Virus record (IMG/VR): IMGVR_UViG_3300043540_000104
Span: 1-27,929 of that record
Direction: 5' to 3' (one strand)
From: a virus
DNA: 27,929 bases
In this document: piece after piece, positions 1,825 through 26,598 of the stretch
Layout: each line of letters opens with the position of its first letter
Numbering within the stretch: position 1 is the stretch's first letter
Made by a program: the position numbers and the translations under genes
Notes under the pieces: model-generated
Database searches by the model: none
Told to the model about the DNA's origin: nothing
Seen by the model: only the letters and a program-made list of their open reading frames with translations

Positions 1825-4800
1825 TTAAAACGGTTTTTGTTCATTTTCTATTTCTTTGTTAAATTCATCAACTATATTTCCCAATATAGTTTTGGATTCA
1901 GATTTTTTTTTGATATAAGCATATTTTTTATTTACCTCATTACCAGCATATCTATCACCAGAAGTTGGTGCAGATTGTTCTATTCTATAAGAAACACCAT
2001 TCAAATCAAACCAATCTTTAGCAATATTAATTGGACAAACACCTCTTCTTATTTTTTCAATATAATCATCTGCTGGAATTTCTATTGTTGCTAAAGAAGT
2101 GTTATAAATAACTGGCAATAAATATCCATCTTTTCCAGAACCCCTATTTTTAGAAATATGACAAGTCCCATAATCAAATTCACTTCCAGAAGGATTCCTA
2201 TTGATACCTAAAATTATATCAGAAATAGCGGCTTTTGCATAACTTTCTGACATATTTTCCATTGAAACATATTCAGATTTTTTACCTTCTTTATTTGCCT
2301 GAGAATTTTTTACGATTATTCCTGCATCCAATCCATAATTATGCAAATCATCAACTTCCATATTATAAACATCATCTTTTCCATAATATTCAATAGAAAC
2401 TACTTTGCAATTATAATTTTTTATTAATTCATTTTTTTCTGAATTTCTTAAAGGGATATTTTTTATTTTTTCCAAACTTTCTTTTTTATTGTTACAATTT
2501 TTTATAATTTCAATTATTTTTTGAATACGATCTTCTTTTACACTTCCAAACAAAGAAATTTCTCTTTTTTTAAAAATATTTTTATTATTTGGATTATCAT
2601 TATATTTATTTAAATCTTTATGATGTATATGTTTACCTTTCTTAACATTTCCAAATTTCCAGTTTACAACTAATTTATATTCTTTTTCCCATTTCCCATT
2701 ATTCAAATATATTTCTTTTCTTCCATCTTTACCCAACCTTCTTTTCAATGGCATTAAAGAATCTCCAATTTTAAGATTTTCAACCTTACAATAACTTCCA
2801 TCCCTTAACATAAAATTATGATTAGGAGTAACTATAATATGTTTACCATTATCTAATGTTACTTTCATTAAATCCTGATTTGTTCCAGATTTATAAACTG
2901 ATTTAACTGTTTTTAAAACTATAGATTTTTTTTCATTGTCGTAAGAATAAACTGGAAATCCTGATTTCCCCACCAAATCTTTTATTTTGTATTTCCCAAT
3001 GGGACTATAAATTACGGTATCACCATGAAAACATGCTGTCAAAATAGGAACTTTTCTTTCTACTGCCAATGCTCTTAAATCTTCATAAACATTTTCTAAT
3101 TCAAATCTTTTCTTTGCTTCCCCTTTATGTAAAGGTTTAACAATATCAGCATAATCAATAATGATAATATCTGGAAAAAAGTTTTCTCTTGCTCCTATTG
3201 TTTCTATAAATGTATTGATTGTTTGAACAGATGCTTTTTTTGTAGGGTAATTTTTTATTCTTAATTTTCCTGATTTTAATTTATAGTTTTGAATTGCATT
3301 ATCAACTACTGTTGGTTGATGTTCCAAATCATTTATTATAACTTTGCTAATCAAAGAGTAAAATCTTTTCATAACAACTTCTTCAGAAAGTTCAAGTGTA
3401 ATATATAAAACATTTTTTCCTTGGTCTAAAATTCTTTTTCCAAAATTAACAAGAGCAAATGAATTATGAATAACTACATTATTAGCTAATAAAAATAAAT
3501 TGTTCATATTTACTTCAAATCCATAGTAATTATCAATTCCTATATTATCAACTTTTATTCCATAATTTAAACTATTTGTTCTTTTTGTTTCTTTATTTAA
3601 ACGTTTTCTTGGAATTAAAACTGGTATTTTATAACAATCACCCTTTATTAAAACATTATAATAAATATTATTATATTTTTTATTAAAATTTTTACTAATA
3701 GATGTATTAAAACCAAGAGAACGAGATAAAGTTGATATGTCTAAAGCTAATGAATAATATTTTGTCGTTATACTATAACTTTTCCCCTTTTTACAACCAT
3801 TAACATCAATTAATCCAGCTAATAACTGTATTCTTTTCTTATAACTATTTACTAAATAATCAAATGGAATATGTTTATTATGTTTCAAACCATAGAAATT
3901 TAAATCATTCATTAAACTATTAGATGCTTCTTTTTCTAATTCACCTACTATTTCCTTATCCATAGTTGTTACTGAAAACTTATGTTTACTACCATTTCCT
4001 AACCATACACCTAATAAATATGGGGATATTTTAACTTGTTTATCTTCGTATTCAACACCATTTATACAACCCTTTAATTTTCTTTGGAATCCTTTTGGTA
4101 ATAATAAATATTCTTTTACTGGAATATTAAAAAATTCCCCATCATAATATTTTTTATATATACTATTCGGGTTACAATATTTTTTTATAGAATTTTTATC
4201 ATCTATTTTTAAACTTAAAATATGTTCGGAATTTACAATATAACTATCAATATCTATGTTATTTTGTTTTGTATTGATATTTGAAACTTTATACATTTCA
4301 CCTTTTCCACTGTGTAAAGACAAAACTTTTCTTGGTGTAGAATCATTACCCATTACCAAATCATTAATTTTTATGTCTTCTACATTTTTTGTTGTTCCAT
4401 CATACATCAATATTTTTGTTCCTTTTGCCAGACATTTTCCGGTTGAGGGACCACCACATATAACACAAAGTTCCCCAGCAGAAAAACCTCCATTGAAAAT
4501 AAAATCTAAAATATTATATCCGGTTCCTATTGTCTTTCTTGATGTTGAAAGAATTTTCTTTACATCTTCATCAAAACTTAATCCCAAATCTTTCTTCATA
4601 TCAAATTGAGTTGCTTCAGTAATTATTTTTCTAATTTTATCATATTCTTCTTTTGCAAGATAATCAGTAGATTTTTCAATAGCATCTCTCATTTTCTGAT
4701 TTTTACAAAATTCCAAACTCTTCTCTTTTGTGTATTGGAGATTAACTTCTTTGTTTTCAATTTCACCAATAATTTGCTGACATTGTTCAACAATATCTTC

Positions 4801-5052
4801 ATTTTTTATATAGGTTAATTCTGCTTTAAGTTCAAATATAGCAGGAGGACCATAGAACTTGTGATAGTGATTTAATATTTTATCAACTAATGTTCCGTGT
4901 GGAGAACTTACAAAATATTCTGGACGGATTAATTCTGCAATTTCATCTAAAAAATTTTTATCAGTTAATAACGCTTTTATTAAATTAGTCTGAAATTCTT
5001 TATCAAATTTATCAAACGAATTCTTTGGATTCCTTAAATTTTGTGGAAGCAT
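1825..5052 (-). CDS. dnaB: Replicative DNA helicase (DnaB/T4 gp41-like) precursor with two inteins
   Basis: The 1075-residue precursor would splice to about 508 residues, a normal size for a DnaB-family helicase. The N-terminal domain (1-~160) is followed by a RecA-like core. The Walker A motif GGPSTGK (200-206) is followed by intein 1 (207-530), and extein resumes with SFALVNFGKR. Walker B is DIIIIDYADIVKP (628-640). Intein 2 (674-916) interrupts 'ILTA | SQANKEG', the strand leading to the conserved Gln sensor of this family. The C-terminal part has KNRGSGKDG (968-976), the DnaB-type arginine-finger region. The helicase unwinds the phage fork with the primase encoded at 20682-21665. Its 5' end overlaps the upstream FEN nuclease gene by 41 bases. 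Function requires both inteins to splice. Confidence 0.95.
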   Translation of the reverse strand: MLPQNLRNPKNSFDKFDKEFQTNLIKALLTDKNFLDEIAELIRPEYFVSSPHGTLVDKILNHYHKFYGPPAIFELKAELTYIKNEDIVEQCQQIIGEIENKEVNLQYTKEKSLEFCKNQKMRDAIEKSTDYLAKEEYDKIRKIITEATQFDMKKDLGLSFDEDVKKILSTSRKTIGTGYNILDFIFNGGFSAGELCVICGGPSTGKCLAKGTKILMYDGTTKNVEDIKINDLVMGNDSTPRKVLSLHSGKGEMYKVSNINTKQNNIDIDSYIVNSEHILSLKIDDKNSIKKYCNPNSIYKKYYDGEFFNIPVKEYLLLPKGFQRKLKGCINGVEYEDKQVKISPYLLGVWLGNGSKHKFSVTTMDKEIVGELEKEASNSLMNDLNFYGLKHNKHIPFDYLVNSYKKRIQLLAGLIDVNGCKKGKSYSITTKYYSLALDISTLSRSLGFNTSISKNFNKKYNNIYYNVLIKGDCYKIPVLIPRKRLNKETKRTNSLNYGIKVDNIGIDNYYGFEVNMNNLFLLANNVVIHNSFALVNFGKRILDQGKNVLYITLELSEEVVMKRFYSLISKVIINDLEHQPTVVDNAIQNYKLKSGKLRIKNYPTKKASVQTINTFIETIGARENFFPDIIIIDYADIVKPLHKGEAKKRFELENVYEDLRALAVERKVPILTACFHGDTVIYSPIGKYKIKDLVGKSGFPVYSYDNEKKSIVLKTVKSVYKSGTNQDLMKVTLDNGKHIIVTPNHNFMLRDGSYCKVENLKIGDSLMPLKRRLGKDGRKEIYLNNGKWEKEYKLVVNWKFGNVKKGKHIHHKDLNKYNDNPNNKNIFKKREISLFGSVKEDRIQKIIEIIKNCNNKKESLEKIKNIPLRNSEKNELIKNYNCKVVSIEYYGKDDVYNMEVDDLHNYGLDAGIIVKNSQANKEGKKSEYVSMENMSESYAKAAISDIILGINRNPSGSEFDYGTCHISKNRGSGKDGYLLPVIYNTSLATIEIPADDYIEKIRRGVCPINIAKDWFDLNGVSYRIEQSAPTSGDRYAGNEVNKKYAYIKKKSESKTILGNIVDEFNKEIENEQKPF
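2305..3033 (-). other. DnaB intein 2 (cis, HNH-like endonuclease insert)
   Basis: It covers residues 674-916 (243 aa). The first residue is Cys674: CFHGDTVIYSPIGKYKIKDL. Block B is IIVTPNHNFML. An HNH-like segment, GKHIHHKDLNKYNDNPNN, lies in the middle. Block F is DVYNMEVDDLHNYGL and the end is AGIIVKN, followed by Ser917 as +1 nucleophile. The penultimate residue is Lys915 instead of the usual His. The insertion point is the conserved 'T-A|S-Q' strand of the helicase. Confidence 0.9.
3463..4434 (-). other. DnaB intein 1 (cis, LAGLIDADG domain, apparently inactivated)
   Basis: It covers residues 207-530 (324 aa), from Cys207 (CLAKGTKILMYDGTTKNVED) to His529-Asn530, with Ser531 as +1 residue. 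It interrupts the P-loop directly after GGPSTGK. Block B is IVNSEHILSL. The two LAGLIDADG helices read YLLGVWLGNG and LLAGLIDVNG. In both, the position that normally holds the catalytic Asp is Asn, so cleavage is probably lost while splicing residues look intact. Confidence 0.92.
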
Positions 5053-6025
5053 AGCATAAACTTCTTAATGTTGAAGACAATGACGAAAACTGTATTCTTA
5101 ATGGTATCATATTTTTTTGAAACAGTAAATTCAAATTGAAATGGTCGTATTCTGGCTTCCAACTTTTCAGCGAAGATTCAAGTTTATTAATTGCAGTAAC
5201 AGAAATATTTTTATTGTTTCTTAAATTCATTAATTCATACTTATTCTTTAAAGTATAATAAATAGAAACTTGATTATTTAAAGATTGCAATTTTTTGTTA
5301 TCATTTTGTTTTAATTTTACCAAAGACCAAAAATCATCAATTCCATATTCTTTTTCTGCTAATTCTGGAAATAATTTTTGAATGGTTTTATTCCCTATCC
5401 CTTTAAAATCTTTTTTTATGTTATCGGATTTATCACCCAATAAAGTTTTTCTGATAACCCAATTTTCAGGAATAATTTTATATTCATCCAATAAAACTTT
5501 TTTGGTTATCATTTTTCCTTTGATTTTTTCTTCACCAACTTTTTCTGTTTTAGTGGGAGAAAATACCGAAGTGTTATCTGAAATGAGCTGATAATAATCT
5601 TCATCAGTTGAAATGATTATTTTTTCTTCATCTTGAAATTTTTTGGTAAGATATGATATAACATCATCAGCTTCTAAAAAATCAACCGATAAGTTACAAA
5701 CCGGCATTTGTTCTACAAGTGTAAAAAACACTTTCAGTTCATTCCAGAAAGCATTATTTTCATTGTATTCAATATCGGATATTGTATGCGGACTTCTTCT
5801 ACCATCTTTGTAATCATGAAAACTGTGTCTACGTCTCAATCCACTTTTTTTTCCTTCATAACAAAGAAATACTACATCTGGATTGAAACGATTTATCCAA
5901 TTATACAAACTCATTACTGAATTTGTAATTGCACCAATGTGCAAACCATTTTCATTTAATTCTTTAGATGTAGAAAAACACCTAATAAATAGGTTAAATG
6001 TATCTACAAGAATTATTTTAGACAA
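5012..6025 (-). CDS. 5'-3' exonuclease of the FEN/T4 RNase H type
   Basis: The 337-residue protein begins SKIILVDTFNLF, the first strand with metal-binding Asp8. It has the family acid cluster DFLEADDVI (118-121), STDEDYYQL (140-143), and LLGDKSDNI (197-202) followed by a helix-hairpin-helix GIGNKT (209-214). This is the full catalytic set of flap endonucleases and phage RNases H, which remove RNA primers and 5' flaps. The first codon is TTG at 6023-6025, chosen because the conserved strand begins right there. The gene overlaps the helicase gene by 41 bases, which suggests translational coupling. A second FEN-type nuclease is encoded at 25663-26598. Confidence 0.9.
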   Translation of the reverse strand: MSKIILVDTFNLFIRCFSTSKELNENGLHIGAITNSVMSLYNWINRFNPDVVFLCYEGKKSGLRRRHSFHDYKDGRRSPHTISDIEYNENNAFWNELKVFFTLVEQMPVCNLSVDFLEADDVISYLTKKFQDEEKIIISTDEDYYQLISDNTSVFSPTKTEKVGEEKIKGKMITKKVLLDEYKIIPENWVIRKTLLGDKSDNIKKDFKGIGNKTIQKLFPELAEKEYGIDDFWSLVKLKQNDNKKLQSLNNQVSIYYTLKNKYELMNLRNNKNISVTAINKLESSLKSWKPEYDHFNLNLLFQKNMIPLRIQFSSLSSTLRSLCYASTKFKESKEFV

Positions 6026-10470: not shown

Positions 10471-11760
10471 TTAATCTTCATCAGGAACAACTTCAACATT
10501 AGTTGGAGTCATTGCATCAAGGTCATCTTCAGTATATTCATCTTTTTTTTCCCATTTCATTATATAAGTATCAATGAGTTTCTTTCTAACATCTTCAATC
10601 AAATTATTTTCTTTAATCACATTTTTCCATTCTGCTTTTTTGAACTCAAAACTTTTTCCATCATCAAAAGTGATTTTATATTTTTGAGTTGTTGGTCTTT
10701 CAATTCCACCCCTTAAAAGAAGTGCATCAAACCAACTATCTTTATCATCTATTCCACGATTGAAATAAACATTAAAGTTTGCTTCACGGAATCCCGGACC
10801 TACTCTTGATTTCTTTGTTGTTACTTTTACATTGATACCCCTTATTTCTTCAACATCTTTATCTCCCAAAGTGATCTTTTCTTTTATCCATCCATTCCTT
10901 TCAACTTTAAGTCTTAAAGAAGCATAGAATTCAAGTGCTTTACCTGCTGATGCTGAAACATTTTTTTCACCAAACTGAACACCAATATTAGTTCTGGTTT
11001 GTGCTGTGCAAACCAATGCTACATTGTGTTTCTGAAGTAACCTTGCGAGTTTTCTGAAACCTTTTGACATAAGTTTTGCTTTAGCCATACCATAACCAGA
11101 TGCAGCAAATTCACCTTCCATTTCTTCATCATCTGAAGTTGCTGTTACAGAATCCCAAACGATTGTAATGAATTTGAATTTATTAGCATAATTTATGATT
11201 TCTTCAATCTTTGAAAATATTTGTTCAACAGTATCTAAATTTCTATAATGAACAAGTGTATTAATATCTACACCAATGATTTTCATAAAGTCTGTGCTTG
11301 TTGCTGCCTCTGTATCTATAAATACTGCCAAGCCACCCATTTTTTGAGTGCTGGATAAAATATGTGAAGCCAATAGAGATTTACCAGAATTATGATTCAA
11401 CATTCCATTTCCAAAATAACATTGTTCATCATAATCTTCTTTGTCAATCATAATATCAACAATAGGATATTCTCCAATGTATTTAACTTCTTTAACTGTT
11501 CTATAAATATTATCTTCACACAATATCTTTGTTTGTGTGGGTAACAAATTTAAAGTTGTGACCCATCCAGAATTTGTAAAAAATATGTGTTTTTCTGCAA
11601 CTTTTATACTAAAATTATTTTCCAAAATTACTTGCCATGTTTTTAATATTCCTTTCTTTATATATTCTTTTACTGGATAATATTCGTTATTTCTTGAAAG
11701 AATTTTTACTTTTTTACCATCTTTTAATAATTGTTCAATTTCTTTTATTTTGATTTTCAT
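10471..11760 (-). CDS. uvsX: UvsX/RecA-like recombinase, C-terminal half, with split C-intein at its N-terminus
   Basis: Residues 1-124 are the C-terminal part of a split intein. Residues 125-429 are the body of a RecA-fold recombinase beginning SGKSLLASHIL, the second half of the Walker A motif. FITIVWDSVTATSDD is the Walker B strand, and LARLLQKHNVALVCTAQTRT the RecA-type sensor strand. Joined to the product of 12206-12511, the P-loop becomes GAPSSGKS and the mature protein is about 393 residues, similar to T4 UvsX. It would form filaments on single-stranded DNA for strand exchange and replication restart. AAAGGATTAG before the ATG is a good ribosome binding site. The acidic C-terminus resembles other RecA-family proteins. 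Confidence 0.93.
   Translation of the reverse strand: MKIKIKEIEQLLKDGKKVKILSRNNEYYPVKEYIKKGILKTWQVILENNFSIKVAEKHIFFTNSGWVTTLNLLPTQTKILCEDNIYRTVKEVKYIGEYPIVDIMIDKEDYDEQCYFGNGMLNHNSGKSLLASHILSSTQKMGGLAVFIDTEAATSTDFMKIIGVDINTLVHYRNLDTVEQIFSKIEEIINYANKFKFITIVWDSVTATSDDEEMEGEFAASGYGMAKAKLMSKGFRKLARLLQKHNVALVCTAQTRTNIGVQFGEKNVSASAGKALEFYASLRLKVERNGWIKEKITLGDKDVEEIRGINVKVTTKKSRVGPGFREANFNVYFNRGIDDKDSWFDALLLRGGIERPTTQKYKITFDDGKSFEFKKAEWKNVIKENNLIEDVRKKLIDTYIMKWEKKDEYTEDDLDAMTPTNVEVVPDED
11389..11760 (-). other. C-terminal fragment of the split UvsX intein (124 aa)
   Basis: It starts MKIKIKEIEQLLKDGKKVKI, strongly basic. AEKHIFFT looks like block B with its His. VDIMIDKEDYDEQCYFGNG is block F, and the end is LNHN, with His-Asn and Ser125 as +1 nucleophile. 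No endonuclease domain is present. It therefore carries nearly the whole intein fold, and the partner N-fragment is only 13 residues. Confidence 0.92.
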
Positions 11761-12625: not shown

Positions 12626-13396
12626 TTATTGGCTTAAAATATCTTTTAACTTGCTGGTCAATAAAGATTCGTTTGCTGCAACTTCTTGGTCAATGGTTGC
12701 AGTTGGATCTTCTTCTTTACCATCAACTAATTTTTGAACCTTTTCTAATAATTCTTCTGTTGAAAGTTCCTTAAAGATATCAAGAATATTTGGACATTCA
12801 TCATACAACTTTTGTGCGAGTGCCATATCCTCAAGTAAAGGAGTCTTTGCGGGTTTCATAAACACGGAAGTCTTTCCCCAGATTTCTTTTGCATTACGAC
12901 CAGTGTATTCTACGATAACATCGTGTCCTGCTTTTGCATTTGCGATATCACCATAATCTTCCTGTAAACAGAATTTAATTATGGTTTCGTAAACTGTTGG
13001 TGATATACCCCAAAAATAAACCTTTGGTTCATTTCCTCTTTTAATTTCATCTCTTGAAATGATTGGAATGTAATATCTTGGTTTTGCTCTCAATGCTTTT
13101 GCTTTATCTTTATCTTCCTGTAATTCGGATTTATAAAGATTGCTTACATAATCACAAAGAGGACAATCTGCCCTGCCCAAAGATTTCTTTGCACAAAGAA
13201 CAGTTTCGCCTTTTAAATAGTGAAAATAAAGTTCATTGAAAGGACTTACAGCGTGTTTGTAAGGAATAATTCTGACGAGGTTGTTTCCTTCTTGTGGTTT
13301 CCAAAATAATTTTTCTGATGCTTTTTTCTTTTCTTCAATTGTGTGTTTAAGTTGTTCTACATTAATTGAGCCTTGAAAGTTAAATGTGTTATCCAT
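12626..13396 (-). CDS. 32: Single-stranded DNA-binding protein, T4 gp32-like
   Basis: The 256-residue protein has FWKPQEGNNLVRIIPYKH, typical of the gp32 N-terminus, and a zinc site His59, Cys68, Cys78, Cys81. The Cys-x9-Cys-x2-Cys spacing equals that of T4 gp32. YYIPIISRDEIKRGNEPKVY and the following WGISPTVYETI match the OB-fold core. It coats single-stranded DNA for replication and recombination and would cooperate with UvsX, encoded next downstream. The C-terminal region is moderately acidic, as expected for partner binding. The leader contains a GCGTA/TACGC hairpin (13422-13438) that could matter for autoregulation, as T4 gp32 controls its own mRNA. Confidence 0.92.
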   Translation of the reverse strand: MDNTFNFQGSINVEQLKHTIEEKKKASEKLFWKPQEGNNLVRIIPYKHAVSPFNELYFHYLKGETVLCAKKSLGRADCPLCDYVSNLYKSELQEDKDKAKALRAKPRYYIPIISRDEIKRGNEPKVYFWGISPTVYETIIKFCLQEDYGDIANAKAGHDVIVEYTGRNAKEIWGKTSVFMKPAKTPLLEDMALAQKLYDECPNILDIFKELSTEELLEKVQKLVDGKEEDPTATIDQEVAANESLLTSKLKDILSQ

Positions 13397-16496: not shown

Positions 16497-18779
16497 TTAT
16501 TGCTGTATAATCTTTGAGAAACCATTTGATTTATTAATCAATAAAACATTATCACAAATATCATAAATAGTGACATGACTAATAACCATTACATTTTTAA
16601 ATAATCCCTTTAAATATCTGAATAACTTTGGAATTTCTCCAAGCATATTAGCATCAAGAGGTCCCAATGGTTCGTCTAATAACAATATCTTACATTTTGC
16701 TATTCTGGAAATCAACACCAGTGCTGCCCTAAAAGCCAATCCAATAATTGTTACTTGCATACCACTTGCTTGTTTTTCAACATGGTATTCCAATCCGGAT
16801 TTTTCTTTTACTTTAAATAACAATTCTTCATCTTGCATAATAGCATTTATATTCCAATCAACAACATTCTTTGTCATATTAGTCATTGTTGAATTTAATA
16901 ATTGAATATAATGTGCCACAATAGATTTTGGAATTCCATCTCTATGAACAGCATGATAATAGGTTTCATAAACCATATATTCTTTTTCCATCAATTCAAA
17001 TTCTTTAATTTGCTTATCAATGGAAGCAACCTTTTCAGCATTTAATTTTAATGCAACTCTTAAATTATTTGCTTCATTGTTCTTTTTAATTCTTTGGTCT
17101 TTTAAATTATATACTACAAGTTCTTGTTCGTTTGCTTGTTTCTTATATAATTTGTTTTCCAAAATTGTCTTTTGATTTATTTCATAATCAGAAATTTTTG
17201 TTTTTATTTTTTCAATTTCTAATCTTATTTTTTCAATCTGGGTTTTAAGAAGACTAATTCTGTTTTGATTTATTTTGTGTTCTGTATCTTTATTTACCCG
17301 AATTTCAAATTCTTTAATCTTATCTTCTATAATCTTCTTATCGGTTTGTTGTTCATCAATTTCATCTTCTTTTTGCCTTACATATTGTTCAAATGCAATA
17401 ATATCTCTTTCTAATCCTGGAATTAATCTTTCTTTTTCAAATGCTTTTTCAAGGAACATACATTTCTTACACAAATCAGTTTCTCTGCACCAAGGTTGTT
17501 TGTCTATAATTTGAGAATCATTTTTATTTTCTTTTATCTTACTTTTATTAACTTGAATACTTCTTTCGGCATTATGTTTTTCAGTAGTCAAATTTCTAAT
17601 CTTAGTATCAATATCAGCAATAGCATTTTTAAGAACTTTTATGTTTTCCTGAATCTTCGGCATATCTTCTGGATTATGTGGATTTAATTGTATTAATTGA
17701 ATTTCCGCTTCTTTGTTTTTTATTTCTTGTTCATATAAAGTGATATTGTGTTTTTCATCATCTACATTGATTTCTTCCACCTTTACTTCTTTTATCAACT
17801 TTTGAATTTCAATTAATTTATCAGTTTCAACCGTTATTTTATCATCTAATTCCGAAAGTTCTGTGTTGATATCTTCAAGTTTTAAAGTATCTTTTCTTAT
17901 AGTATCTTGAATAGTTGAAAAATCTGCTAAAACATTATCTTTGTTAAATGTTTTCAATTTGTTTTTCATTTCATTATATCTTGGTGTAATGAATTTTAAC
18001 AAACCTTCAAATATTTCAAGTCCCAGCATTTTAATTAAAATTTTTGCTCTAATTGTCGGTGTTGAACATACAACACTTTGAATATCAAATTGTTTAGATA
18101 AAGCAGTATCTCTAAAATCTTTATAACTTCCGAAAGTAGTTTCAATAAATTTTTTTATTTCATTTTTGTTTCCTTTACAAGAAGTATCTGATGGGTCTGT
18201 TAAATTATTAATTTCAACATCATATTCAGTTGTTCTTTTTATATCACTTTTTTTTCTAACATCTCTTATGATATGATATTTTTTTCCACCAACATTTATA
18301 ATTACTTCTAAGTGCATACTTTCTTTTTTATGATGTATTAAATCATATTCAGGAGTATCATTTAAAGACTCGCCATATATAGAATAATATAAGGCATTAA
18401 AGAATGTAGAATTATGAGAAACTATCCCATTGGAATAATATTGTTTAACTTCTGCAACCTGTATATCATATAAATCTTCTTTGTTTTTTAATAATTCTAT
18501 TACCTCTAATTCTTCCGATCCACTATCAGTTTCAATAAAATCTCCAATATTAAATTCTGACACCTTTTGAAATTTATTCTCTTGTTTTAACAAATGGTTT
18601 GGCGAACATTTCAATGTTTTGCCTGATTTAGTTTGAATTTTTATGACATCTGAATTTTTTGCTGTAATATCACAAGCCTCAATTTTTTTATATCCAAATG
18701 GAGTATTAACATTTATGTTTAAATCTCCATATTTTTGAAAGATATTATATATTTGTTCTATTGTTATTTTCTTTTTCAT
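16497..18779 (-). CDS. 46: Rad50/SbcC-like ATPase (T4 gp46 type), main part, with split C-intein at its N-terminus
   Basis: Residues 1-123 are a C-intein. Rad50 resumes at Ser124 (STFFNALYYSIYG), which completes the P-loop begun on the other gene. Then come two long coiled-coil arms (~280-430 and ~445-610) around a zinc hook CKKC (Cys437, Cys440). The signature is EKQASGMQVTIIG (S672-G673), Walker B KILLLDEP (Asp702-Glu703), D-loop GPLDANM (706-712) and H-loop VISHV (His735). This ATPase with its Mre11-like nuclease processes DNA ends for recombination-dependent replication. Without trans splicing it lacks a working P-loop and the first ~50 residues of Rad50. Its partner gene is 19051-20367. 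Confidence 0.95.
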   Translation of the reverse strand: MKKKITIEQIYNIFQKYGDLNINVNTPFGYKKIEACDITAKNSDVIKIQTKSGKTLKCSPNHLLKQENKFQKVSEFNIGDFIETDSGSEELEVIELLKNKEDLYDIQVAEVKQYYSNGIVSHNSTFFNALYYSIYGESLNDTPEYDLIHHKKESMHLEVIINVGGKKYHIIRDVRKKSDIKRTTEYDVEINNLTDPSDTSCKGNKNEIKKFIETTFGSYKDFRDTALSKQFDIQSVVCSTPTIRAKILIKMLGLEIFEGLLKFITPRYNEMKNKLKTFNKDNVLADFSTIQDTIRKDTLKLEDINTELSELDDKITVETDKLIEIQKLIKEVKVEEINVDDEKHNITLYEQEIKNKEAEIQLIQLNPHNPEDMPKIQENIKVLKNAIADIDTKIRNLTTEKHNAERSIQVNKSKIKENKNDSQIIDKQPWCRETDLCKKCMFLEKAFEKERLIPGLERDIIAFEQYVRQKEDEIDEQQTDKKIIEDKIKEFEIRVNKDTEHKINQNRISLLKTQIEKIRLEIEKIKTKISDYEINQKTILENKLYKKQANEQELVVYNLKDQRIKKNNEANNLRVALKLNAEKVASIDKQIKEFELMEKEYMVYETYYHAVHRDGIPKSIVAHYIQLLNSTMTNMTKNVVDWNINAIMQDEELLFKVKEKSGLEYHVEKQASGMQVTIIGLAFRAALVLISRIAKCKILLLDEPLGPLDANMLGEIPKLFRYLKGLFKNVMVISHVTIYDICDNVLLINKSNGFSKIIQQ
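18411..18779 (-). other. C-terminal fragment of the split gp47-46 intein (123 aa)
   Basis: It starts MKKKITIEQIYNIFQKYGDL. KIQTKSGKTLKCSPNHLLKQ is block B with its His. DLYDIQVAEVKQYYSNGIV is block F, and it ends SHN, with Ser124 as +1 residue. No endonuclease domain is present. The basic start complements the acidic 30-residue N-fragment. Confidence 0.93.
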
Positions 18780-18811
18780 CTGTAAAATTTTTTATTTTTT
18801 AACATTATCAC

Positions 18812-18988
18812 TTACAAACACATTGAAATTGTTTGATAGGTAAAATTTTTTTCTATTGAAACTATTTGGGTTGTTACTACATTAAATTTATTCCTATATT
18901 CTTTGTTAGACAATTTGTGAATTCTTGATATATGTGTTGTAAGATTTGTAGATTCTAATCCACATATTATACATTTTAATTTTTCCAT
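18812..18988 (-). CDS. Small zinc-finger (MucR-like) protein in the gap of the split gp46 gene
   Basis: A frame is open from 19006, but AAAAGGAGAAGTGCGATG places the start at 18986-18988 with a strong ribosome binding site. The 58-residue protein has LKCIICGLESTNLTTHISRI then HKLSNKEYRNKF: a C-x2-C...H-x4-H finger followed by the 'HxLSxxEYxxKF' helix typical of MucR-like fingers. In phages this module often sits at the start of larger homing endonucleases. Here only the finger remains. Its place exactly between split-intein halves suggests it is a relic of, or helper for, the mobile element that split the gene. It might also regulate transcription. Confidence 0.65.
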   Translation of the reverse strand: MEKLKCIICGLESTNLTTHISRIHKLSNKEYRNKFNVVTTQIVSIEKNFTYQTISMCL

Positions 18989-19050
18989 CGCACTTCTCCT
19001 TTTCATATAAACAATATCTTGCTATAAATAGAATAGGAAAGTCTTGAAAA

Positions 19051-20367
19051 TTATTCAATTAATTCCTTTGGAATAAAACCCAATTTTTCTTTAATATATT
19101 CTTCATCAAATTCTACTTCTATTTCTGTTTTTTTATCTACACATTTACCCATAGTATTATCAGCAAATATTCCAGTAATACCATGTAATTTTGTGAAATC
19201 AACTATATTATCCTCCCCATATCCAGAAAAATTTGAAAAAGTTAGAAGTTCCGGTTCCCAACTAAATTTACGAAAATCTTTTTTATTTATTGTTTGGTTT
19301 GCCGCTTCGTTCAATTGAACACACCTATCAATAATCCATTGATCTGTTTTCCATTCCTTTAAATAATTTTTAAGTATTTCGTTTTGAACTTTTGTATCAT
19401 AGATATTTTCAACATCAGTATCAATATTAACCTGAATATCTTTTACTTCTTCTTCATAATTATAACTTAAAATCAAACTACCTTTTTGACTTACTTGGTC
19501 TCTAATATTTTTTTCAAGTTTTGCTTTTTCAACTTCATTTAATTCTTTATCACTAATATATCTCAAATGAACATATTTACTTAATTCAATATTAGATAAA
19601 TCTTCTGAAAATAATTTTACAAAAGAATATTCGTTTTTTACCGGAACATATTGACATTCTTTTGTATTTATATCCCAGACCAAAACCCCTTTAGATACTG
19701 ATTCTCCGAAGTCCTGTTGAACAAGAGAACCAGAATATGCAATTGCTGGTTTTATAATTCCATTTAATACAGAATATTTTTGTATAATTTGTCTTTTGTG
19801 AATATCCCCAGCAATAACTATATCATATCCATTAAACATATCAACTGTATCTTTTTCATCACTAAACACATATCCATCTTCATTAGTGCAACCTTTAATT
19901 GTTCCATGATATATTGCTATATATTTTTTGCCATCTATTCTTTCTGGATTTAAAGGATATTTTTTTCTATCATCAATCATAGAAAATATCCCTAAATTTA
20001 TTTCATCATCAAACTTATAAATTCCACTTTGGGTATAATAAAGTAAATTCGGATTTTTTATATCTTCTATAATTGCAGATATACTATCCATTCTATCTTT
20101 TACCGATAAATTAAAATCGTGGTTTCCGGGAATAACAACTGTTTTAGTAATTTCAGAAAGACTTTTTAAAAACCATCTGTTTATAGAAACCGATTCTGGT
20201 GATAATATAAGTTTTGCATGAAACAAATCTCCTGCCACAACTATCATTCGTGGCATTATCTTTTTTGCCAAATCAATTGTTCTTTGCATAACACCTCTAA
20301 ACTCATCGTGTCTTGAAGTGTTTCTTGTTTGAACATCTGCTATGTGTAATATAAATTCATTGTTCAT
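19051..20367 (-). CDS. 47: Mre11/SbcD-like nuclease (gp47) fused to the N-terminus of Rad50 (gp46), ending in a split N-intein
   Basis: Residues 1-~350 are an Mre11-type phosphoesterase: HIADVQ (8-13), VVAGDLFH (D47, H50), PGNHDF (81-84), AIYHGTI (H154) and VIAGDIHKRQ (D188, H190). The first motif has Gln13 where Asp-x-His is usual. From ~360 the protein continues directly into Rad50: FSWEPELLTFSNFSGYGEDN, then the strand GITGIFADNTMGK, whose end (402-408) is the P-loop up to the Lys. Cys409 starts a 30-residue N-intein. Splicing with the product of 16497-18779 would give a single Mre11-Rad50 chain of about 1045 residues. In T4, genes 47 and 46 are separate neighbours, so this fusion is unusual. 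Confidence 0.93.
   Translation of the reverse strand: MNNEFILHIADVQTRNTSRHDEFRGVMQRTIDLAKKIMPRMIVVAGDLFHAKLILSPESVSINRWFLKSLSEITKTVVIPGNHDFNLSVKDRMDSISAIIEDIKNPNLLYYTQSGIYKFDDEINLGIFSMIDDRKKYPLNPERIDGKKYIAIYHGTIKGCTNEDGYVFSDEKDTVDMFNGYDIVIAGDIHKRQIIQKYSVLNGIIKPAIAYSGSLVQQDFGESVSKGVLVWDINTKECQYVPVKNEYSFVKLFSEDLSNIELSKYVHLRYISDKELNEVEKAKLEKNIRDQVSQKGSLILSYNYEEEVKDIQVNIDTDVENIYDTKVQNEILKNYLKEWKTDQWIIDRCVQLNEAANQTINKKDFRKFSWEPELLTFSNFSGYGEDNIVDFTKLHGITGIFADNTMGKCVDKKTEIEVEFDEEYIKEKLGFIPKELIE
19054..19143 (-). other. N-terminal fragment of the split gp47-46 intein (30 aa)
   Basis: Cys409 to Glu438: it starts CVDKKTEIEVEFDEEYIKEK and is strongly acidic. It contains block A and little more. It is longer than the UvsX fragment but still much shorter than usual split N-inteins. 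Confidence 0.9.
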
Positions 20368-20681: not shown

Positions 20682-21665
20682 TTATATCAATCTTAATTTC
20701 ATTCTAATATTATAATCAGAATCAAATAATTTAATATTCCTAATAGCATTTTCTATTTCTTCTGGCGTTGAATCACCTAAATCATTATATTCAGTTTCCA
20801 TTGAATATACTGATATTTGTTGTTTATATAATGATAACATAATTTGTCTTTGTTTTGCCAAAGCGTCTGGGTCTAAACATACTGTAACCGATCTTGGTTT
20901 TTCCCTTATAATTTTCTTATATAATTTGCTATCTTCGGATAATGTTGAACCCAATAAAGGAATAGTTTGAAGTCTTTGCGATAATTTGATTGCATCAAAT
21001 ATTCCTTCGGATAATGCTATATCACCTTTCCAATCTATATGTGATTCATTAAATATAATTTCTTTCTTTGATGTCTTGCAGTTATATTTGAAATTTGTAT
21101 CAATTGAACGAAAAAACAAAAAATCAATTCCACCTTGAACTGAATATGAAGGGATACAAATACTTCTTCTTAAAACTTTATTATCAATGTTAATTTGGTC
21201 AGCATATCTTATATCAAACTTAACTGCTGTCTGAATATCAATTCCCCTTACATCATGAACATATTTTCTGGCACTGTGATTTTTGCTTAATTGGGTAAGT
21301 GGTATTGTATTTCTAAAAACATCATCATACCATACTTTTTCAACCTCAATGTTTTTAATTGTTTCGGGAATATAACTCCCAGAAACTTCATTCCATTCCG
21401 ATATAAGTTTACTAGCATATCTTTTGATAAGATATGCAATATTTTTGATTTTAATATTACATACCCAACAGTGTGCATTTTCCTTTTCAATGTTTACACA
21501 AAATTTATCTTTTCTTTTATTGTGTGAATTACATTTTGGGTTAATACATTTATATAACAATTCGCCATTTTTGGGAACTGTGCTTGGTCGTCTACCATAC
21601 GCATCCAAAAAACTGTTAAGTATTCTTATTTTCTTTTGAAGTTGCTGTAAACTGTATGTATTCAT
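20682..21665 (-). CDS. DNA primase, DnaG/T4 gp61-like
   Basis: The 327-residue protein has an N-terminal zinc region (Cys40, Cys45, Cys56, Cys66, Cys69; HCWVCNIK matches the second Cys pair of DnaG-type fingers). A Toprim core follows, with GDIALSEGIFDAIKLSQ (catalytic Glu) and SVTVCLDPDALAKQ (DxD). It would make RNA primers at the fork with the DnaB-like helicase. Its size is close to that of T4 gp61. It overlaps the upstream unknown gene by 50 bases. The spliced gp47-46 genes follow, so replication and recombination proteins are co-expressed. Confidence 0.9.
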   Translation of the reverse strand: MNTYSLQQLQKKIRILNSFLDAYGRRPSTVPKNGELLYKCINPKCNSHNKRKDKFCVNIEKENAHCWVCNIKIKNIAYLIKRYASKLISEWNEVSGSYIPETIKNIEVEKVWYDDVFRNTIPLTQLSKNHSARKYVHDVRGIDIQTAVKFDIRYADQINIDNKVLRRSICIPSYSVQGGIDFLFFRSIDTNFKYNCKTSKKEIIFNESHIDWKGDIALSEGIFDAIKLSQRLQTIPLLGSTLSEDSKLYKKIIREKPRSVTVCLDPDALAKQRQIMLSLYKQQISVYSMETEYNDLGDSTPEEIENAIRNIKLFDSDYNIRMKLRLI

Positions 21666-22717: not shown

Positions 22718-22863
22718 TATTTTTCCTTTCTTTCTAACTTTTCTTGTTTTTTTTCTTGTTCTTGTTCTTGGAATTTATGAACAATTGATTGAAAATATTT
22801 TTCTTGGATTTTAGTCCAAAGTTTTTTCTTCTTTTGTAATTTGAATATCTTTGTTATTTGCAT
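22717..22863 (-). CDS. Small basic ORF (48 aa), possible separate gene or displaced C-terminus of the methyltransferase
   Basis: ATG at 22861-22863 lies inside the 3' end of the methyltransferase gene in another frame. The product is basic then Gln/Glu/Lys-rich: KKKKLWTKIQEKYFQSIVHK, FQEQEQEKKQEKLERKEK. Its TAA overlaps the next ATG as TAATG, which suggests real coding. Alternatively, loss of one A in the A6 run (22825-22832 region) would fuse it to the methyltransferase. Confidence 0.45.
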   Translation of the reverse strand: MQITKIFKLQKKKKLWTKIQEKYFQSIVHKFQEQEQEKKQEKLERKEK

Positions 22864-23500
22864 TGTTTTCTCCTAAACTTACATATTCTGGATTTAATTC
22901 CGAAGCGATAAAATTTCTTTTGTTCCTTATACATACTTTAGAAATAGTTCCAGAACCAGAAAATGGGTCATAAATTAAATCCCCTTCTTTTGTTGATTTC
23001 AAAACTAATCTTTCAATAAGTTCTTCTGGTTTCTGTGCTGGATGAATTCTCTCTTTTACCGGAACAGCTCTGCATTTTAATATATCACCATCTCCAGTTG
23101 GAATTGGTCTTGCTTCTGGTAATTCACCCCATAATATAATTTCGTGTTGATGTCTCCACCCATATCCATTGATAGATACTCCTTTATCCCATATTAATGG
23201 TCTTACATTCTTTGTGAAAAAATAAGCATAATAATAAAATAAAGGATAACTTTGACCATCACAAAACATATAAATAGAACCAGTCGGCTTTAATATTCTT
23301 GCAAATTCTTTAAATACACTTCTGAAAAAATATTCTACAATACCCAAATCAGAAAAATTCCTTTTGAAATTTTTTCTTGTTGCATAATGCTTTGTTGGCA
23401 AAAAATATGGTGGATCTGTAATAATACAATCTACAAACTTGTCTGGCATCTTTTCCATTGTGTAAAAACAATCTTCTACATAAATTTTATTTATTTCCAT
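22811..23500 (-). CDS. DNA methyltransferase (N6-adenine or N4-cytosine, beta class)
   Basis: The 229-residue protein carries the catalytic motif IITDPPYFLP (29-32) first, and later HPAQKPEELIERLVLKS (153-169) and DLIYDPFSGSGTISK (178-185), the SAM-binding motif. The order DPPY before FxGxG defines the beta class. GWRHQHEIILWGE lies between them. There is no restriction enzyme gene next to it. It could protect phage DNA from host restriction or regulate replication. Specificity cannot be read by eye. Its start overlaps the upstream gene by 10 bases. Confidence 0.9.
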   Translation of the reverse strand: MEINKIYVEDCFYTMEKMPDKFVDCIITDPPYFLPTKHYATRKNFKRNFSDLGIVEYFFRSVFKEFARILKPTGSIYMFCDGQSYPLFYYYAYFFTKNVRPLIWDKGVSINGYGWRHQHEIILWGELPEARPIPTGDGDILKCRAVPVKERIHPAQKPEELIERLVLKSTKEGDLIYDPFSGSGTISKVCIRNKRNFIASELNPEYVSLGENNANNKDIQITKEEKTLD

Positions 23501-25551: not shown

Positions 25552-25685
25552 AATAAATCTCCTCTATTTTTTAATTCTTGTAATGCTATATATTCAGAAC
25601 TTCTACCCTGATTGTTTAATACTTTTGAAAATGCCAAAGAAGTATCTTTTGGTTCCAAATACTCATTGTGACTTATTGGTATCAT
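25548..25685 (-). CDS. Small ORF (45 aa), coupled to the downstream membrane gene
   Basis: Starts with ATG at 25683-25685, inside the last codons of the FEN gene, and encodes MIPISHNEYLEPKDTSLAFS then KVLNNQGRSSEYIALQELKN. Its TGA overlaps the ATG of the next gene, and its final codons carry that gene's ribosome binding site. The soluble, polar product is not recognised. Confidence 0.55.
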   Translation of the reverse strand: MIPISHNEYLEPKDTSLAFSKVLNNQGRSSEYIALQELKNRGDLL

Positions 25686-26598
25686 TGTTGTTTTCTCCAG
25701 AAAAATTTATTTGTCTTAAAGATAAAAAGTTATCAACCTTTTCATCCCAATTACCCATAAGAAACCTAAATGCTTTCTTCTCTCTACAATACATTTTTAA
25801 TAATGTGCTGTCAAATCTTGGTGGTTTAATTGATTTAAGTATATTGATTGTTTCATCAATATATTCTTGTGGAATACTTTTGAAGTCTATTAAAAATTTA
25901 TTATTAGCCAATCTATTTTGTTCTTCTTCAGTTCTCTTAATAAACCATTCATTCAATAAATTAAAGTTCTTAACATATTTTAGAGCAGTAACGGGACCCA
26001 CACCCGGAAATCCCTGTATCTTATCAGATTTATCACCTAATAATGATTTATATAAAACAAAGTCATAATTAATATCTTTCTTTTCGGTAAACAATTTTGT
26101 TCTTGGATTCCAGACTTTGACATTATCAATTTTGGTTACCAATTGAAGCCAATCAGCATCACTAGATATTGCAACAATATCTCCGCCATATCCAATATCC
26201 CTTAAATATTTTGCTGTAATATAAGCCAAATCATCGGCTTCCAGATTTTCATTTCTTAAAAAATATACAGGAAAGAATTCTTTTATCTTTTCTTTTAAAC
26301 TTTTTCGTTGTCTTCTAAAATCTTCAAATAATGGGTCTTTTTGTCTTACTTCATCTCTTCCAGATTTATATTCTGCAAGTCTGCTATAACGCCAATGTGG
26401 ATAACCTTCATCTAACATTATCATAGAGGTAGGTCTGTGGGTTTTTATCCAATAATTAAATTTGATAAGAAATTCACCGATTAGAGGCCAACCACCATTT
26501 ATGGAACTATCATTTACTCTTTTAGTCCTACATAAATAAAACATATTTGCCAAATCTATTATAAGACAACATTCTTTTTTTACACTTTGTATTCCCAT
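25663..26598 (-). CDS. 5'-3' exonuclease of the FEN/T4 RNase H type, second copy
   Basis: The 311-residue protein has LIIDLANMFYL (Asp15), NLEADDLAY (120-123), AISSDADWLQL (146-149), LLGDKSDKI (188-193) and the helix-hairpin-helix GFPGVGPVT (196-204). This is the complete FEN metal site. It differs from the 337-residue FEN at 5012-6025, so the window encodes two such nucleases. The start ATG lies within the last 19 bases of the GIY-YIG gene, out of frame with it. The residues before Glu9 appear to come from that boundary, not from an ancestral start. A 5' remnant of a similar gene is found at 27295-27360. Confidence 0.9.
   Translation of the reverse strand: MGIQSVKKECCLIIDLANMFYLCRTKRVNDSSINGGWPLIGEFLIKFNYWIKTHRPTSMIMLDEGYPHWRYSRLAEYKSGRDEVRQKDPLFEDFRRQRKSLKEKIKEFFPVYFLRNENLEADDLAYITAKYLRDIGYGGDIVAISSDADWLQLVTKIDNVKVWNPRTKLFTEKKDINYDFVLYKSLLGDKSDKIQGFPGVGPVTALKYVKNFNLLNEWFIKRTEEEQNRLANNKFLIDFKSIPQEYIDETINILKSIKPPRFDSTLLKMYCREKKAFRFLMGNWDEKVDNFLSLRQINFSGENNNDTNKSQ

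Follow-up and report, generated by a model that had tools for sequence, protein, structure and literature searches.

How a phage can make a working recombination ATPase from a gene that is interrupted inside its own ATP site is the question raised by a two-gene locus on IMG/VR record IMGVR_UViG_3300043540_000104, a metagenomic contig of 27,929 nt analyzed at its full length (positions 1 to 27,929; the window). Two open reading frames (ORFs), lying exactly where the original prediction had placed them, together encode an Mre11-Rad50 (gp47-gp46) fusion, and each carries one part of a split intein at the break. The explanation that we favor, and hold to be highly probable, is that of a fractured gene: a mobile split intein with a homing endonuclease would have entered the Walker A motif, the endonuclease decayed, and the two halves would be spliced in trans into one Mre11-Rad50 chain.

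The N-half protein has a Metallophos domain (Pfam, 8.8e-10), and its predicted structure matches the Mre11 chains of Mre11:Rad50 complexes (E 5e-15). No stop codon intervenes between the Mre11 domain and the Rad50 N-lobe, which is in frame with it rather than in a separate gene as in the T4-type gp47/gp46 layout. The 438-aa ORF ends with GIFADNTMGK followed by CVDKKTEIEVEFDEEYIKEKLGFIPKELIE and the stop codon. The 760-aa C-half ORF contains the junction YYSNGIVSHN/STFFNALYYS (slashes mark intein boundaries); residues 124-759 of its product are SbcC-like (PHROGs, 1.2e-27), and its match to the Pfam Intein_splicing family is weak (2.3e-4, under the gathering threshold). A Metallophos domain is thus N-terminal to a Rad50 ABC ATPase with zinc hook, signature, and Walker B, which identifies an Mre11-Rad50 fusion, but unlike the usual fusion its coding sequence is not contiguous, the two ORFs being 271 bp apart. 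The proposed anatomy of the first gene, a gp47-like nuclease continued by the Rad50 N-lobe as far as Lys408 and then by a 30-aa N-intein from Cys409, agrees with the ORF, Pfam, the structure match, and the alignments. That of the second, a 123-aa C-intein, Ser124, and the Rad50 remainder with hook, signature, Walker B, and H-loop, is borne out by PHROGs, alignment, and the match to the intein VidaL.

The C-intein resembles VidaL in sequence (E 1.2e-8; ~25% identical), and its model, which predicts a HINT fold with a predicted local distance difference test (pLDDT) score of 92.9, has VidaL (PDB 6vgv) as its top structural match (E 1.5e-7, template modeling [TM] score 0.87). The residues for splicing are all present: Cys409 at position 1, block B H62, H122-N123, and Ser124 at +1. 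His62, Asp105, His122, and Asn123 are invariant across 17 homologous C-inteins. Split inteins with a short N-part include VidaL (16 aa), AceL-TerL (25 aa), and GOS-TerL, and these share with the studied intein the short N-part, Cys1, and the C-terminal HN; their host genes differ from ours, and splicing of the studied pair is predicted. With an N-intein of 30 aa and a C-intein of 123 aa in separate ORFs, the pair is within the range of atypically split inteins, in which an N-intein of about 15-37 aa is on a separate polypeptide from the C-intein (PMC13014065), and not of the canonical DnaE or gp41-1 type, with an N-intein of ~100 aa.

When the exteins are joined in silico, the product is 1045 aa long, as predicted (~1045 residues with the P-loop ADNTMGKS restored), and its residues 6-1042 align to a contiguous fusion of Microcystis phage Mel-JY01 (WWT39521.1; E 8e-91, 27% identity). 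The joined exteins therefore match an unbroken homolog, as expected of a fractured gene; the Mel-JY01 protein has the same domain order and differs in being contiguous and without an intein. The joined P-loop, GIFADNTMGKS, fits the G[LIV]FAxNxxGKS of the fused clade. A profile scan found related proteins at no fewer than 553 IMG/VR loci, and all 80 of the best relatives inspected among them are contiguous fusions of 1012-1096 residues with the P-loop GKS and no intein. Isolates have fusions too; contiguous ones are encoded by phages PAU, PTm1, and phiLo and by one 735-kb phage. Mre11-Rad50 fusions were described in 2011 in Mimivirus (R555), a Bacillus phage, and aquatic viral metagenomes (Yoshida et al., PMC3175470); the R555-type proteins share the domain order of the studied phage and are contiguous, without an intein. 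The phage Mre11-Rad50 fusion is therefore common and already published, and the idea that a 47-46 fusion is itself unusual falls away. In the 484-kb phage LR756508 (L003:3947-8172), the fusion is interrupted within the Mre11 domain, after GDIHKRQ, by an endonuclease-looking ORF (4668-5585).

The same bond is divided in other, uncultivated phages. An IMG/VR scan with a C-intein profile found a split intein in the fused gene of L160, L162-164 (one sequence type), L165, and L170 (loci are cited by L numbers), an uninterrupted intein at the same site of the fused gene in L159 and L166, and the C-half alone in L161. The search for fusions with the same junction that had been suggested thus succeeded in independent IMG/VR contigs, and it removed the claim that a fusion split in the ATP site is out of the ordinary: at least four other phage lineages are split there, and two more have an uninterrupted intein. 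The N-inteins of the fused relatives align to the studied N-intein almost gap-free, for example CVDKKTEIEIEFDEEEIINKLGFLPDELS in L163. IMG/VR scans with either half as a single protein gave no match, because such scans reach close relatives only. A strict pattern of P-loop plus Cys gave two matches, both by chance, and a long pattern for the fused-clade junction gave none; these absences misled as to uniqueness, because the C-intein profile scan then found the split fused relatives.

A pattern combining an intein end with a following Rad50-like P-loop recovered 52 IMG/VR stretches. At least 33 of these 52 hold both split-intein halves in an unfused gp46, several of the contigs being near-duplicates; two more (L103, L120) carry the intein in uninterrupted form at this P-loop bond, and five are chance matches. 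A tree of 50 C-inteins sorts by host gene, into those of helicases, gp46, SbcC-like proteins (with N-halves of ~200 aa), and fused genes; the eight from fused genes adjoin but do not make up a clade with full support. Another SbcC-like ATPase (L167-L191; P-loop GGK/C, ~200-aa N-half) houses related inteins, most of them split, that group together with good support, and the N-half of the member tested, L171, matched no Pfam or PHROG family. Among seven matches from the genome-contig scan, several with archaeal titles (e.g., L147, L148, and L153) appear to be inteins of secretion-type ATPases instead of Rad50 and were set aside. In open-literature searches for an intein together with Rad50, gp46, or SbcC, whose coverage did not extend to the 2009 fractured-gene paper, no description of a split intein came to light for Rad50, gp46, or the fusion.

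The spacer between the halves, which like its ORF was absent from the original prediction, encodes a 64-aa ROS/MUCR zinc finger in the place of an intact endonuclease gene. The likelier start of this ORF is an internal ATG at 18988, behind a good ribosome-binding site, AGGAG (18996-19000). In small local comparisons, the zinc finger matches three proteins at their N-termini: one of 289 aa from phage SPO1L5 (2e-11), in which a Vsr-like catalytic motif, ECNGYYWH, is recognizable by inspection, and the products of the ORFs that occupy the spacer in L165 (441 aa, 2e-9) and L163 (402 aa, 8e-9). The endonuclease class of the latter two is assigned by motif, Pfam detecting their zinc finger alone. 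Full-length endonuclease-type ORFs separate the fused-gene halves in L160, L163, and L165, that of L160 being a GIY-YIG enzyme; in L170 a gap of 150 bp holds an 18-aa ORF preceded by a ribosome-binding site. Unfused gp46 genes show a parallel range: some gaps measure ~1 kb and contain an endonuclease ORF of full length, others of 117-165 bp keep fragments, and at the short end 38 bp remain or the halves overlap. Judged by these matches, the 64-aa ORF is a truncated remnant of a homing endonuclease, and the studied locus is one point in an erosion series.

Fractured genes, as Dassa et al. reportedly described them in 2009, are host genes in two ORFs that carry split-intein halves, with an endonuclease gene between. 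The studied locus shares the two host ORFs and the intein halves; the relatives L098, L163, and L165 retain a long endonuclease-type ORF between, whereas here the endonuclease is a zinc-finger stub and the host gene an Mre11-Rad50 fusion. On this model, a mobile split intein with a homing endonuclease would have invaded the Walker A motif of the fusion gene, and the endonuclease would then have decayed to its N-terminal zinc finger; because only that finger is left, the element has probably lost the ability to move on its own. Two proteins would be made from the host gene, one comprising Mre11, the Rad50 N-lobe, and the 30-aa N-intein and the other the 123-aa C-intein and the remaining Rad50. 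The intein halves would associate and fold into a HINT domain, and splicing in trans, with Cys409, Asn123, and Ser124 as the reacting residues, would yield one chain with its P-loop intact. Trans splicing of the two halves is very likely, and it is the likely route to a working ATPase.

The original prediction had named a sequencing error as a possible cause of the split, and an assembly or sequencing artefact might be suspected in a single metagenomic contig, but the spacer carries its own ORF and the junction recurs in independent, unrelated contigs, so that this account is scarcely credible. It is hardly more plausible that the split killed the gene and left both ORFs as relics. Decay of the endonuclease and replacement of the motif I His by Gln would suit that account, yet open frames of 438 and 760 codons persist, and Walker A and B, signature, hook, H-loop, and splicing residues are intact at only ~26-37% identity to relatives. 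Phage enzymes split by endonucleases are known to work as two polypeptides, as in the NrdA of phage Aeh1, whose halves assemble without splicing (reviewed in PMC2988022). Such assembly is very unlikely here: the intein parts on the two halves match and include every splicing residue, and because 30 plus 123 foreign residues would otherwise remain between the Lys and Ser of the ATP site, trans splicing that rebuilds Walker A is the best supported outcome.

A somewhat less improbable alternative, although still an unlikely one, is that splicing serves as control, the split being kept after endonuclease loss because late or conditional splicing delays ATP binding by Rad50 while free Mre11 nuclease is available. 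The insertion is in the ATP site, and the split has outlasted the endonuclease in the studied phage, in L170, and in the gp46 loci L116, L118, L122, L131, and L097. Such persistence is, however, expected anyway if the halves are seldom re-joined precisely; L159, L166, and L120 have the uninterrupted form, no sensing feature was found, and fast natural split inteins allow little delay. The uninterrupted inteins of L159 and L166 have a Met at or near the point where split C-halves start (LENAMKKIITI and PDKMKKMMTI), which hints that they may have arisen by the re-joining of split inteins and not be ancestral to them.

Several points weigh against the fractured-gene explanation. The contig is a 28-kb fragment, and an unsplit copy may exist elsewhere in the genome. 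The predicted N-half structure is poor past residue ~300, a clear Shine-Dalgarno sequence is missing ahead of the C-half start codon (as also seems to be so for the C-halves of L165 and L131), and the studied C-intein forms no fully supported exclusive grouping with other fused-gene inteins. Mre11 motif V is GDIH. At motif I, DVQ (Q13) stands in place of the D-x-H of most relatives; because of this difference, nuclease activity may be altered. The motif I His is nearly invariant among the aligned relatives, with Gln in 4 of the 80 and in phages PAU and PTm1. The dependence of end processing on trans splicing, as first proposed, would hold for the ATPase; the unspliced N-half contains the whole Mre11-like domain, which may work as a nuclease on its own, in which case end processing would not rest wholly on splicing. 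Similarly, a 1:1 tie of Mre11 to Rad50 follows from the fusion, as in all intein-free relatives, and not from splicing.

P-loops of other genes are also interrupted. Related inteins follow GK in the terminases of Kuja and phiMAM1 and in DnaB-type helicases, and a 462-kb phage has one ahead of GKT in its PhoH-like gene. The Kuja terminase (Ackermannviridae; SGK/C...HN/TT) is interrupted at the same place relative to Walker A as Rad50 here. P-loop insertion is shared as well with the archaeal VMA-b intein (PMC8966425), although VMA-b and the Ackermannviridae terminase large-subunit inteins (Kuja, phiMAM1) are uninterrupted and in other ATPases. The window itself encodes a DnaB/gp41-like helicase of 1075 aa (1825-5052, minus strand) with two uninterrupted inteins: a LAGLIDADG intein in the P-loop (GGPSTGK/CLAKGTK...VVIHN/SFALV), inserted at GK/S like that of Rad50, and another at LTA/CFHGDT...IIVKN/SQANKEG. 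In the 462-kb phage, LR756500 (L011, L158), the PhoH-like gene and the terminase large subunit are both fractured, each with an endonuclease-type ORF between the split-intein halves. Gp539 of the isolate Salicola phage SCTP-2 (L156:1909-4674), annotated as hypothetical, is a gp46 in which an uninterrupted intein that begins with Ala occupies the same P-loop bond (GK/AQPYH...THN/TTIIN). It is tempting, but in our judgment doubtful, to see the Walker A of phage Rad50/gp46 as a recurrent home of a P-loop-specific split-intein family, also found in the P-loops of DnaB helicase, terminase, and PhoH, in which the split would in some lineages outlive the endonuclease as trans splicing became a useful gate on ATPase assembly.

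A T4-like replication and recombination module surrounds the locus (Table 1). The primase-like gene upstream of the fusion is present in Mel-JY01 too and, by its look, in LR756508.

Table 1. Parts of the split Mre11-Rad50 locus and its neighbors in the window
Feature	Coordinates	Strand	Evidence
N-half gene, 438 aa: Mre11/gp47-like nuclease, Rad50 N-lobe, N-intein	19051..20367	-	ORF; Pfam Metallophos; structure match to Mre11
Mre11-like nuclease, capping and Rad50-binding region, residues 1-360	19288..20367	-	Alignment
Rad50 N-lobe ending in Walker A GIFADNTMGK, residues 368-408	19144..19266	-	Alignment to contiguous fusions
N-intein, 30 aa, Cys409-Glu438	19054..19143	-	Alignment with N-inteins of L160, L163, L165, L170 and uninterrupted inteins of L159, L166
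Spacer between halves, 271 bp	18780..19050	-	Gap between the two ORFs
ROS/MUCR zinc-finger ORF, 64 aa	18812..19006	-	PF05443, 6.4e-6; matches endonuclease-type N-termini
C-half gene, 760 aa: C-intein, remaining Rad50	16497..18779	-	ORF; phrog_77 SbcC-like, 1.2e-27
C-intein, 123 aa: block B His62, block F Asp105, His122-Asn123	18411..18779	-	Conservation; predicted structure
Ser124, +1 extein residue; would be Walker A Ser once spliced	18408..18410	-	Ser nearly invariant there in fused relatives
Zinc hook CKKC	17460..17471	-	First Cys is an invariant column, C722 of joined protein
ABC signature SGMQ	16755..16766	-	S-G-M invariant in alignment
Walker B KILLLDEP	16668..16691	-	D-E invariant in alignment
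H-loop VISH	16575..16586	-	His invariant in alignment
UvsX-like recombinase	10471-11760		
gp32-like single-stranded DNA-binding protein (SSB)	12626-13396		
Primase-like protein	20682-21665		
DNA methyltransferase	22811-23500		
T4 RNase H-like exonuclease	25663-26598		

The locus and its relatives put split inteins precisely at the Lys-Ser bond of the ATP site in an enzyme central to recombination. They form an unusually clear set for comparison, running from an intact endonuclease to none in both the fused and the unfused gene, and the series allows tests of how a split intein survives the loss of its mobility gene and of whether splicing is limiting for recombination in phages. They also supply many natural pairs of short-N split inteins for protein ligation. 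Gp46 and gp47 are among the possible homing functions (PMC2988022), and the recombination machinery hit by the intein is machinery that homing may itself use.

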